Positions 36,296 to 50,900 of a stretch of 64,000 nucleotides of DNA are shown here, piece by piece. The position numbers were made by a program, and so were the translations under genes. The DNA is taken from positions 1 through 64,000 of the forward strand of contig MU385747.1 in assembly GCA_022497155.1 (NCBI GenBank). Reading direction: 5' to 3'. Within the stretch, counting starts at the first letter, position 1, and each line of letters opens with the position of its first letter. Below the pieces are notes generated by a model, which was not told the DNA's origin, searched no databases, and worked only from the letters and a program-made list of their open reading frames with translations. The stretch comes from Whalleya microplaca (lineage: Eukaryota > Ascomycota > Sordariomycetes > Xylariales > Xylariaceae).

Positions 36296-37071
36296 CTTCA
36301 TCTGCAATGGGTTGGGAAATAGCATCCTGATATCTACCTATTCACTTTCAATCCTATCCAGGCTGCCAGGCTTGGAGTTGTCAGATAACAAAATGATCGA
36401 AGCCAGTAGAGAGCATACTTACGCTGCAGATGACATTCAACCGTTGCCACTTTGCATGAACGAGATCAAATAGTTAGCCCGTATTTTATTTGAAAAAGAT
36501 CTAGCTTAAATATTCTGTAATTATTAGGCTACGTATTGACCAATATTGGTGATACCACAAGCTTCAGGTGCTTGCAGGTCATAAAACAATCCTCAAATAT
36601 GTATGTAGTATGTAGCAAAGCTTTCCAAGAATATAAGCCCTTGTCTAGCATACAAATCAAGACAGGGGTGTGATTCCTACCTTAAAGAGTAATTTGTACC
36701 CTGGTTTGGACCGATATTCAAGGGGGCCTTACACGTCGGTTGTGGCCCAGCTACAATAATCCTACCAATAGGTATAGGTTGAATTGCCAAGAGCAAGAAG
36801 TCTAGACTATGGTGGATGTTTTGATAATGTTTGCCTTGGCTACCCAATGAAACGTATGATGCCCACGCTGCCGCCTACATGACCTGAATATTTTCTTTTC
36901 CTAATATAACTATAGAACTTTTCTCGTCCTCAATTGTCCTCGTATTTTTTCCATCACTCTTTTGGAAACGTCACTGTTGAGACAAGTTCTTGAAACAAGC
37001 CTGCCAGCTGTCAGCCCCAGTAAGGGCCCTACCAATTCTCCGCAGGTATTCCGTCAAAGCGGCCAAAAAGC
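36296..37071. other. Intergenic region upstream of the Cys-rich gene
   Basis: Normal composition. No open frame of note. A possible small intron (donor GTAAGG at about 37,020, acceptor CGCAG at about 37,045) could lie in the 5' leader of the next gene, but nothing decides this. Confidence 0.5.
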
Positions 37072-37833
37072 ATGGCATCAATCACAACGACGATTCCTAC
37101 CGGCCTGATAAAGCGATGGTGTCTAGGCTCCTTAGAATCCTTCGACGGCGAGCGCTATGAATGCGCGAACAAGACTTTGGGGACCAAAGAATCCGATTTC
37201 CAGACCTTCTGCTGCAACGGTGAGATCCTTAATGTCGAGAAGAGCATCTGGATACCTGGAGGATGGGGCAACGACTCCTCAATGAACCTATCAGACATGG
37301 TTTGCTGTGGGCTTGGGGGACACCAAGCAGGAGGCCTGCACCCGCTGCCCACAGCATACACGGAGTGTTCAGAGGGATCACCGACACCGTTGGCAAGCCT
37401 GGCTTGTACAAATACTGAGAATGCGGTCCCATTTCTAGTTACGTATACCAGCGCAAGCTTCGGTGATAACACGGTGGGGGATTACGTACCTACCGAGACG
37501 CCGAGTTGTTTCTGGGCGTACAAAGTTGATGTTGCAATGGAGACTATCACCTTGCCGGTACCTGATATCACAACATTGCCGCCTGCTACAACGGACGTGT
37601 TTGGGCTTCCCATCACAACAACGAGGCCGAGTAGATCGGACAGTGGGATTACTAGTTCAAGGTCTAGCGCCAGTCCCGGAACTACAATCTTTTCGGGAAC
37701 AGTACCAGAGAGGAGCAGCGGGATATCCAGCGTGTCAACACTGACATCTTCAAGTATCGCCACAGCCCACGCGGGTATACAGAAAGGGCTTATGTGTATT
37801 TGTTTAGGTCTTGTAGCCCTAAGCCTCTTTTAA
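37072..37833 (+). CDS. Cys-rich, Ser/Thr-rich protein with hydrophobic C-terminus (possible GPI-anchored surface protein)
   Basis: 253 residues, single exon, ATG in a good context (AAAAAGC before ATGG). The N-terminal half is Cys-rich: Cys17, Cys31, a Cys47-Cys48 pair and a Cys78-Cys79 pair, with several Asn-x-Ser/Thr sites. Residues about 160-230 are dominated by Ser, Thr and Pro, as in the stalk of fungal wall proteins. The last 20 residues are hydrophobic (G-L-M-C-I-C-L-G-L-V-A-L-S-L-F), which fits a GPI-attachment signal or a tail anchor. A clear N-terminal signal peptide is not visible, so either the true start lies in an upstream exon or export is unconventional. The antisense strand is also open for up to 105 codons, but the Cys spacing and tail support this strand. 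The protein is not assigned to a named family and its function is unknown. Confidence 0.72.
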   Translation: MASITTTIPTGLIKRWCLGSLESFDGERYECANKTLGTKESDFQTFCCNGEILNVEKSIWIPGGWGNDSSMNLSDMVCCGLGGHQAGGLHPLPTAYTECSEGSPTPLASLACTNTENAVPFLVTYTSASFGDNTVGDYVPTETPSCFWAYKVDVAMETITLPVPDITTLPPATTDVFGLPITTTRPSRSDSGITSSRSSASPGTTIFSGTVPERSSGISSVSTLTSSSIATAHAGIQKGLMCICLGLVALSLF

Positions 37834-39150: not shown

Positions 39151-40571
39151 ATGGCTGACCCCAATCCTTTCTTTGGGTTATATGACGTGGAGCTACAGGA
39201 GCATTCTAAGAAAGAAACCAATGACCTCCCGAAGCAACTGAAGAATGGAGAAAGTCGTTTCTCTTGGGAGTTCCAGCAAAGAAGGCGGAAGGCCAACGCC
39301 GACAAAACCAGGGACGATATCGAGGCAGGCTATGAAGGCCTGAATTACAGGGGTTTTTCCATCCCACGCACATCCGAGCCAGATAATGTAGCCACGAAAA
39401 TCACGAAACTGGAACCACCTAAGGATATTGACCTTGCAGTTGTGTGGCCGAATAGCATCGAAACTAGCCAGGAGAAGGTCCCGTGCTTCTTCTTCATACA
39501 CGGCGGAGCTCGTGTGGGGTCTTCTCGCTTCGTCGGTCTGGGTGTCAACGGCCACAGGTGGGCGGAAGAGTTCAATGCTGTCACAGTCAGCGTCGAATAC
39601 CGCCTTGCGCCGAACCAGGGGGTGGGTGAGGATCCCGTGAACGATTGCTACGAGGCTCTAGACTGGGTCTTCCAGCAGATTCCCCGAGATGGTAATCATA
39701 CGTCCACTATTGAGAATTCTCCCCCTCTCGGACTTGTTCACCCTGAGAAGGTGTTTGTGTGGTTAGTTTAAATTATCCCCTACTACTAGATGTCAATACC
39801 TTCCGTGGACTCCTAGCCGCAGCCTTTGTATGGTATACTAACGGTGCATGTAGTACGTACAACTACTATTTTCATACAATTCCCTTCATTACTTATATTT
39901 TCAAGTTTGATCACCACTCGACATATTATAGGAGTCAAGTAATCAGTTATTGGAAGCTATGCTAATTCAAAATAGATGGTACTTCATCCGGAGGGGGCTT
40001 GGCGGCTTCCCTAGGGATGAAATGGAAAGATGACACAGACAAGCATCCACTAGGCGGCATCTTCATGGAAGCACCTCAGCTAGCCGACAGAAACATGACA
40101 GACTCCAAACAACCGTTTGACGATGGCAACATGTTCATCTGGAGGGATGCACTACTCGGTTGGAAGTGCTCCCTTGGAGAAGATCGCGTGGGTAGGGACG
40201 ACGTCACCAAGTACGAGGTTCCAGCTCTTGCACAACCGAACGACCTTCGAGGACTTCCGCCCGTATACCTCGACGTCGGTTCTGTCGAGCCTTTCCGAGA
40301 CGAGGTTGAATACTTTGCTGATTTACTCAGCCGAGCCGGTGTCCGCTATAGCTGTTATGTCTTCGAAGGTGGCTTTCACGGCTACTTCGCTGCTGTTCCC
40401 GACGCTCTCATCTCGAGATTGACTCAAGCGGCTCGGAAGATGGAGCTACATAGCCTCATCGATTGTGGCAACGGCAAGAAGGAAGAATCGATTGAGGAAT
40501 ATGAGGAGCTGAAGAAGGAGCTCGAAGACCTGCGCGGCAGGCCAATGGTTACTGTGAAGAAGTCTTACTAG
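39151..40571 (+). CDS. Alpha/beta-hydrolase fold-3 (HSL-like) esterase, interrupted by a complex intron
   Basis: Exon 1 is 39151-39760 and exon 2 is 39976-40571, encoding 401 residues. The start (CTCACAATGGCT) is a strong fungal context. Family marks: oxyanion-hole H117-G-G-A; E149-Y-R-L-A-P; nucleophile elbow G205-T-S207-S-G-G; acidic residue E308 in V-E-P-F-R-D-E; and catalytic H338 in G-G-F-H-G-Y-F. E308 takes the place of the Asp more usual in this family. The class hydrolyses short-chain esters, amides or lactones; the substrate is unknown. No signal peptide is visible, so it is probably cytosolic. The C-terminal 40 residues are Glu/Lys-rich and likely helical. The exons cannot be joined in frame by one GT-AG intron; a split-donor twin intron restores the frame and creates Tyr204 from T plus AT. 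The alternative is a pseudogene with a splice or frame defect, but both exons are otherwise intact. Confidence 0.85.
39761..39975 (+). other. External intron of a candidate D1-type stwintron
   Basis: After removal of 39762-39853, the G at 39761 is joined to TACGT at 39854-39858, giving the donor GTACGT. The branch point is GCTAAT (39961-39966) and the acceptor is AATAG ending at 39975. The spliced external intron would be 123 nt. Exon 1 then ends in phase 1 (39760) and exon 2 starts with AT at 39976, restoring the G-x-S-x-G frame. Confidence 0.68.
39762..39853 (+). other. Internal intron of the candidate stwintron
   Basis: 92 nt with donor GTTAGT, branch point ACTAAC (39837-39842) and acceptor GTAG ending 12 nt after the branch A. 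It lies between the first and second base of the external donor. Splicing it alone would leave a stop codon in frame. Confidence 0.68.
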
Positions 40572-49293: not shown

Positions 49294-50553
49294 TTATTTC
49301 TTCGGGTGCTTCAGGATGTCCTCGCAGTTGGCATCAAAGCGGTGGTTCCACAGGCGAACCTGTTGCATGAAGTTCTCGGTCCGCTGGAGCTCGCGGTCAC
49401 GACCAAACAGAGTCTTGACAAACTCAACACCAGCATTCTGGTTGAGGTTGCTGGATGCATCCTTGTCATTTTTAGACCTCAGCATGGGAGCTTCACACTT
49501 CTTGAGGAGGTGGCGGAGCTTGTCGGTCAGGCGCTCACCGCCCTCGATGAAGTCCTCGACCATCTCCTGGTTGGCCTTGGCCCGGATCTCTGGCATGGCC
49601 TCCTCGGAGCGCTTTAACTTGCCGGAGAGCTGGATGAGAAGCAGCCACATCTCGCCGGCCATGTCGGAGATGGGAGTGGAGGGTCCATGGTGGTAGACGG
49701 TCCAGTCGTACACCCACTTGCCCAAAGAGTTGGAGTCGAAGACACTTCCCAGGAGCATGATGGGCTCTTCCGTGGGGTCCCAGTTCTTCAGCGAATATCC
49801 GGGAGGGATACGGTGCATCTTGGCGTCAGCTTCCGTCGCCTTGCGGGGAGCAGGGGCGGCAGGGGCCTTCTTCCGGTGCGCGCTGGAGGGCCGCGCGGTA
49901 GCAGAACGCGGGATAGGCGTCGACGTCGACGAGCGACGAGCGTGCTGTTGCGGGTGGTGGCCGACCCTGGTGGCGGAGCGAGCCGGTAGCTCATCGTAGC
50001 GAGGGTAGTCTTCTCTCTCCCTATCGTAGAACGACGGCATTGCCTGTGTATAGTAGTAGTAATCAGTGCCATGTCCCGGAGCAGCAGCAGTGTAGAAAGA
50101 ATCCCTTCGCGTGCGACCCCTGTGGTTGGACTGCGCAAACAAGACATATCTGACGTGGTCGACATCGATCACCTCATCGTCGTCGGAGTCCCCATAAGGG
50201 GCCCGAAAGTACGATGCGGAGTTGCGGCGCTCGCGCTTCGGCGGTATCTGGAACTTGTGCGACCCTTTTGAGAAACTGTGCTTTCGCGAACTCACATTCG
50301 GGCTTGGGCCGGTAGCGTACTCGCCGGTGCTTGTGTATCGCGGCGAGAAGGCGGTCGAGGGGCGGAAGTGCTCGTAGCCGGCGGTGCTCGCATTGCGGGT
50401 GTGGGTGTGCGCTCGCGTAGCCGGTCGCTGGGGGGTCTGAGCTGGGTGAAAATGGTAGTGACGAGGTGACGGCGTTGGTGAGGGTGAATGTACGTCGTAG
50501 TAATATCCACTCTCACCTCGATGAGGAGTGCTATACGGTGATCTGTAACTCAT
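49294..50553 (-). CDS. Conserved fungal protein of unknown function (gp1-like, disordered N-terminus, folded C-terminal domain)
   Basis: 419 residues from the ATG at 50553-50551 (context AAGATGAG). The frame stays open upstream to 50,826 but has no ATG there; the CAA-rich upstream sequence looks like 5' leader, so I chose this start. The first 240 residues are low-complexity, rich in Ser, Pro, Arg, Tyr and His, with Tyr runs and an acidic D-S-D-D-D-E patch near residue 125. From about residue 245 a dense, probably helical domain starts with R-I-P-P-G-Y-S-L-K-N-W-D-P and continues through G-S-V-F-D-S-N-S-L-G-K-W-V-Y-D-W to the C-terminus. From memory, proteins with this domain are widespread in Pezizomycotina and often carry the uninformative name 'vegetative cell wall protein gp1'; I know of no proven function. 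No signal peptide or membrane segment; no introns. Confidence 0.85.
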   Translation of the reverse strand: MSYRSPYSTPHRGESGYYYDVHSPSPTPSPRHYHFHPAQTPQRPATRAHTHTRNASTAGYEHFRPSTAFSPRYTSTGEYATGPSPNVSSRKHSFSKGSHKFQIPPKRERRNSASYFRAPYGDSDDDEVIDVDHVRYVLFAQSNHRGRTRRDSFYTAAAPGHGTDYYYYTQAMPSFYDREREDYPRYDELPARSATRVGHHPQQHARRSSTSTPIPRSATARPSSAHRKKAPAAPAPRKATEADAKMHRIPPGYSLKNWDPTEEPIMLLGSVFDSNSLGKWVYDWTVYHHGPSTPISDMAGEMWLLLIQLSGKLKRSEEAMPEIRAKANQEMVEDFIEGGERLTDKLRHLLKKCEAPMLRSKNDKDASSNLNQNAGVEFVKTLFGRDRELQRTENFMQQVRLWNHRFDANCEDILKHPKK

Positions 50554-50900
50554 CTTCCTTGGCTCTTGCGATATCCCGCTCGATATCCGAAGGTACAATT
50601 CGTCGGTCAGATCAGCTCCTGTGGGGTGTTGTTGTGATTGTCGTCGTCGCCCCCTCACGATGTCGGTAGGGGGTTGTCGATCGTGTTGATCTTGTAGTGG
50701 TAGTTGTTGTCGTCGCTGTTGTTGCGATTTGATCGGGGCGGAGGGTTTGTTAGATTTCTTCAGTGTCAGAAATTGGAAAAAAGACGGGCGCCTGTGTCGT
50801 GACGCTGGAGGAGATGACACCTGTCACCTTGGTATGTGGTCGGTTGGAAGAGGAGAGGAGAACCGTCTTCTTGGAGAGAACATGTCAAGATATGGTGTTT
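50554..50900 (-). other. Probable 5' leader of the gp1-like gene
   Basis: Rich in CAA, CAG and CGA on the minus strand, as in many fungal 5' leaders. A minus-strand ATG at 50883-50881 opens a 19-codon upstream frame (starts M-F-S-P-R-R-R, stops at TGA near 50,826) that is in phase with the main frame. It may be an upstream ORF. A CAG at about 50,823-50,821 could serve as an intron acceptor. Confidence 0.5.

Follow-up and report, generated by a model that had tools for sequence, protein, structure and literature searches.

In the 64,000-nucleotide stretch of Whalleya microplaca DNA analysed here (the window), positions 39761–39975 of a putative esterase gene very likely constitute a functional [D1,2] stwintron, the removal of which would require two ordered splicing reactions. 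Evidence for this comes from the motifs and their spacing, from the reading frame and homology register of the product, and from other [D1,2] stwintrons of the genome that are likewise consistent in frame; from the sequence we infer that the gene is expressed and that both reactions take place, in that order. The stwintron is a further example of a kind of intron already known in related fungi. W. microplaca is placed in the Xylariales, Xylariaceae (NCBI taxonomy), and the statement in the initial annotation that D1-type stwintrons occur in filamentous ascomycetes agrees with the available text of PMC9024468 and PMC12403724, in which they are abundant in the Xylariales: over 1,500 [D1,2] stwintrons are reported for the Hypoxylaceae in the former and 288 sequence-similar stwintrons for 14 Xylariales in the latter. 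Of greater importance than the single esterase case is the family of similar stwintrons found in the Whalleya genome.

The proposed nested intron and its host gene

The gene and its interruption are composed of the following features:

39151..39760, + strand: exon 1, from the ATG to the T of split codon 204; the oxyanion-hole HGG is at residues 117–119
39761..39975, + strand: candidate [D1,2] stwintron, 215 nt, phase 1, fitting model A (PMC9024468); exact removal gives a 401-aa frame
39761..39761, + strand: base G1, a G, with which the split external donor begins
39762..39853, + strand: predicted internal intron of U2 type (92 nt) with donor GTTAGT 39762–39767, branch point ACTAAC 39837–39842, acceptor TAG 39851–39853
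39854..39975, + strand: remainder of the external intron; TACGT 39854–39858, branch point GCTAAT 39961–39966, acceptor TAG 39973–39975
39929..39931, + strand: alternative external acceptor, which also fits model A; its use would lead to an immediate TGA stop
39976..40571, + strand: exon 2, which completes Tyr204 and carries the GTSSGG nucleophile elbow, Ser207, Glu308, His338 and the stop codon

By their sequence, exons 1 and 2 are the two halves of a predicted HSL-type (Abhydrolase_3) esterase, and 39761–39975 is the only intron seen in its gene. Searched separately, exon 1 (an open frame of 203 codons) matches positions 2–67 of the Abhydrolase_3 profile (E 1e-8) and exon 2 (197 open codons) positions 77–209 (E 1e-14); the N-terminus of the exon 1 product aligns with the homologue P0122. 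The spliced product is a 401-aa protein with V203-Y204-G205, its junction reading KVFV-Y-GTSSGG. The proposal that T plus AT, read as Tyr204, restores the whole hydrolase is thus upheld by both the length of the product and the register of the protein family.

On recomputation, every coordinate and motif claimed for 39761–39975 in the initial annotation was found in its place. All five motifs and spacings of model A (PMC9024468, Methods 2.1) are present. The 5' hybrid motif is GGTTAGT at 39761, GTTAGT being one of the 24 model A donors; the internal 3' part consists of ACTAAC, 8 nt and TAG, followed directly by TACGT; and the external 3' part (GCTAAT, 6 nt, TAG) has the published spacing. The external intron totals 123 nt (G39761 plus 39854–39975). 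On both strands of the 64-kb window the only model A start is 39761, for which two ends fit, 39931 and 39975; acceptor 39975, not 39931, preserves the frame. The earlier assignment to the D1 type stands, since every sequence-level [D1,2] feature is present and the genome contains other [D1,2] stwintrons which pass a frame test.

We propose that the spliceosome would initially excise the internal U2-type intron, 39762–39853. G39761 would thereby be joined to TACGT, creating the external donor GTACGT, and a second reaction would excise the external intron by way of acceptor 39975. In the resulting mRNA T39760 would be joined to A39976, and the product would be the 401-aa HSL-type esterase.

None of the incomplete or incorrect products reaches Ser207 on translation. 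It had been suggested that retention would yield an inactive protein, the intron lying between the oxyanion-hole motif and the catalytic serine, and the retained form, of 206 aa, does end before that serine. Removal of the internal intron alone gives 240 aa, the extra residues being intron-coded. Distal missplicing keeps one G, which shifts the frame and results in 203 aa, and the form using external acceptor 39931 is likewise of 203 aa.

When the 215 nt were shuffled 40,000 times with their dinucleotides preserved and set back between the true flanks, a model A stwintron of any kind arose in 10 cases, and an in-frame product retaining EKVF and GTSSGG in none (0/40,000). The internal-intron pattern with donor GTTAGT was no more frequent genome-wide than in the reversed control (3 versus 4 matches; 2 versus 5 over a longer range), and because of this the case for the stwintron rests on frame and homology rather than on the motif alone.

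Homology, the deposited protein and alternative readings

The register of the junction was examined in an alignment of 13 sequences: the product, the deposited W. microplaca protein P0121, eight fungal-named proteins, the metagenome protein P0123, one bacterial protein and a paralogue on contig C12. In 12 of the 13, that is, all except P0121, a hydrophobic stretch directly precedes G-x-S-x-G in a single register. Tyr204-Gly205 falls in a register common to the product, the uninterrupted paralogue and nine homologues (these are comparisons of protein sequences, with DNA for the paralogue only). Ser207 and His338 are invariant in this alignment and Glu308 is at least 90% conserved; from the fold we take these three residues to be the catalytic triad. 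The paralogue (L002:1462–2649, minus strand) is a single uninterrupted frame of 395 codons with 44% identity over exon 2. In the AlphaFold model of P0122 (mean pLDDT 85.4, with blocks of about 94 in the strand region; 14 aligned sequences), residues 205–215 form a strand, equivalent to residues 196–206 of the product when mapped through the invariant Gly (G214 of P0122 = G205 of the product).

The deposited protein (P0121; Alpha/Beta hydrolase, Whalleya microplaca, 378 aa) is identical to the translation of the window outside the splice region. It fits the following single intron, which we deduced by matching P0121 to the enumerated introns and not from deposited exon coordinates:

39692..39975, + strand: single intron fitting P0121; donor GTAATC; codons 181–204 removed, one Asp left

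P0121 is without the 24 residues which hold the strand preceding the nucleophile, and very probably it has been mis-spliced on paper. The result is very probably a correction to the gene model, and one more instance of automatic annotation hiding [D1,2] stwintrons, as the available text of PMC9024468 warns. The models of other W. microplaca genes that contain [D1,2] stwintrons may carry the same kind of error.

The initial annotation had held that every single GT-AG intron tried here shifts the frame or makes a stop. When GT-AG and GC-AG introns were enumerated, no single one retained both EKVF and GTSSGG, so this much of the claim stands; in-frame introns do exist, at the cost of trimming exon 1 or exon 2, and 39692–39975 is one of them. 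Non-standard splice pairs were also considered. Five are in frame: the stwintron itself, which here counts as GG-AG (39761–39975), and in addition one TT-AG and three GT-AT introns, and for these last four we know of no spliceosomal basis.

That the gene is read through one canonical intron at 39692–39975 (donor GTAATC, 378 aa) is in our opinion very unlikely, although the intron is in frame and agrees with the deposited protein. It deletes residues 181–204, which 12 other aligned sequences retain in some form, the strand of the P0122 model included; it lowers the Abhydrolase_3 score from the 105.3 bits of the stwintron product to the 89.6 bits of P0121; and its donor is without G5 and absent from the 24 model A donors. 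Apart from the nested arrangement there are four two-intron solutions, two of which insert 27 or 28 residues while two use a 2-nt microexon. The latter are the nearest two-step rivals, one adding a residue and one having the donor GTGGTT. The first of these would consist of ordinary introns at 39762–39931 and 39934–39975 flanking the microexon GA (39932–39933). Its 402-aa product is in frame and both introns contain branch-point-like motifs, but it calls for a 2-nt exon together with a 42-nt intron whose donor, GTCAAG, is outside the model A list, and it adds a residue (WN for Y) to the register common to all other full aligned sequences; we find it barely credible. Of the two-step solutions [D1,2] nesting alone has G5 in both donors and separates EKVFV from GTSSGG by a single residue.

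One might also regard the gene as a pseudogene bearing an insertion, with no productive splicing, in view of the fact that the closest protein found outside the W. microplaca genome is just 44% identical and that a block rich in AT and marked by RIP lies some 3 kb away from the gene. Yet both exons are entirely open (203 and 197 codons), Ser207, Glu308, His338 and HGG are intact, the esterase gene itself is without the RIP signature (index −0.22), and 39761–39975 possesses every splice signal in order, which makes such decay extremely unlikely.

A family of similar stwintrons in the genome

The whole W. microplaca genome (48.1 Mb) was also searched with the internal-intron pattern. With a GTANGT donor it was matched 27 times at short range, as against 11 in the control, and 74 times at long range, as against 18; the regions of all 101 pattern rows were examined, giving 102 distinct match starts. 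Among the first 81 matches BLAST recognized clusters of 10 and 7 members, which a profile HMM merged into one family. In 5-fold cross-validation, for which the 37 core sequences were picked with a profile that had been built on sight of all matches, 45 of the 102 matches scored above 15 bits, compared with 1 of 297 motif-preserving shuffles. [D1,2] stwintrons similar in sequence are thus scattered through the genome as a family of 45 members or more, examples being L068:1548–1762 (+), L056:1387–1600 (−), L097:151–362 (+) and L054:1397–1601 (−).

Ends were assigned by hand to 34 of the 45 members before the frames were inspected, and for 26 of the 34 the flanks measured 1,000 nt or more. In the frame test, which compares the phase of the longest open frames on either side, exact removal of GGT..AG left 22 of these 26 in phase, where one third would be expected (p = 1.0e-7), the failures being L061, L086, L082 and L050. 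With both frames of 60 codons or more the count was 18 of 20. Since removal of a simple GT..AG intron leaves one G and shifts the phase, this agreement supports the [D1,2] assignment for the family. The 57 non-family matches included 11 with short flanks and 25 which by a script rule had no external branch point and acceptor; 15 of the 21 left were in phase (p 4e-4).

The members with assigned ends differ in the distance between the external branch point and the acceptor. A spacing of 19–20 nt fits 18 of the 34 (for example L024, L056, L066, L068, L077, L088 and L097) and one of 6 nt fits 13 (for example L045, L074, L082 and L103), several of the latter clustering by similarity. L054 fits both spacings, and four members have 5, 15 or 16 nt. 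In the first BLAST cluster a spacing of 19 nt fits all 10 members; in the second, 4 of 7 fit 6 nt, while L070 has 5, L072 has 15 and L064 is without an assignment. The available text of PMC12403724 (figure 4 legend) gives 19 nt as the Hypoxylaceae value. Several members have a 5' element of the GTATAAAA type and a 3' element of the TTTTGATAC type, which by eye, unscored, resemble the published near-terminal inverted repeats (NTIRE); a spacing of 19 nt can house the 3' NTIRE, whereas one of 6 nt leaves no room for its 10 nt. The palindrome WTTCTAGAAA, published for stwintrons (PMC8469720, available text), is present at 8 or more of 9 core bases in 7 of 45 family and 4 of 57 non-family matches and in 29 of 900 shuffles, a weak signal.

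We would tentatively suggest, while thinking it somewhat doubtful, that [D1,2] stwintrons have multiplied in W. microplaca in a hitherto unreported burst, leaving 45 or more copies that fall into two subfamilies, the first of 19-nt spacing and capable of carrying NTIREs and the second mostly of 6-nt spacing, and that the unique copy in the window arose long ago by this process and has since diverged, provided that the second group propagated as it is now. The two possible branch points of L054 are what an intermediate between the subfamilies would show. Propagation of the 6-nt group in the form that it has today would mean that stwintrons can duplicate without the NTIRE stem, and such NTIRE-independent duplication, if true, would constrain the proposed RNA-intermediate mechanism. 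With unique stwintrons and a repeated family present together in one more genus, there are new copies on which the multiplication of nested introns, and the need for an RNA stem, can be tested. No paper naming both "stwintron" and "Whalleya" was found in the literature searched, beyond which supplements or other papers may mention them; "Whalleya" is absent from the main text of PMC9024468, PMC12403724 and PMC8469720.

At L009 (C1, about 355–358 kb) three matches to the family model occur on the minus strand within approximately 1.2 kb (2497–2613, 2194–2350 and 1454–1537); a single gene may hold several introns of the family here.

Relation of the window copy to known stwintrons and its surroundings

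From its sequence 39761–39975 looks like a member of the published "uniquely occurring" class. It shares with the uniquely occurring [D1,2] stwintrons of the Hypoxylaceae, as described in the available text of PMC9024468, the five-motif architecture, the model A spacings and the seamless junctions; its phase 1 is the commonest phase there, and distal missplicing likewise leaves a G and shifts the frame. Its host, on the other hand, is W. microplaca, a species absent from the main text of that paper. With the sister stwintrons described from the Hypoxylaceae and Xylariaceae (PMC12403724 and PMC8469720, available text) it has in common the [D1,2] type and its position as the sole intron seen in the gene, for which there are 25 published cases, but its branch point lies 6 nt from the acceptor and theirs 14 or 19 nt. 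It is also unlike the Whalleya family in sequence and without notable terminal pairing. In the [D5,6] stwintron of a reticulon-like gene, according to the available text of PMC9024468, the internal intron likewise interrupts the external donor, there after base 5 and here after base 1.

Membership of the window copy in the sister family was considered and rejected, its score against the family profile being 0.8 bits. A sequence-only model (R1) had no match in the 64-kb window at E values up to 10, although of 16 held-out loci of the family it recovered 15, all but L043, and of 12 non-family loci it matched none. A DNA search of the genome with 39761–39975 returned only the self-match; this carries little weight because a true family member also retrieved only itself. 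The 6-nt spacing and a longest end-region pairing of 7 bp, G-U included, do not correspond to an NTIRE, and the best match to WTTCTAGAAA is 6 of 9. Folding of 39761–39975 gave no special RNA structure (z = +1.34; 187 of 200 shuffles folded more strongly).

Positions 1–36000 of the window form an AT-rich block, with about 21–25% GC per 12 kb versus 48% to the right, and show a strong dinucleotide signature of the RIP type (the composite index is 0.79 to 1.0 there versus −0.26 to −0.36). Further long open frames occur at 49294–50823 (minus strand, 509 codons) and at 37024–37833 (plus strand, 269 codons), the latter being Ser/Thr-rich near its C-terminus.
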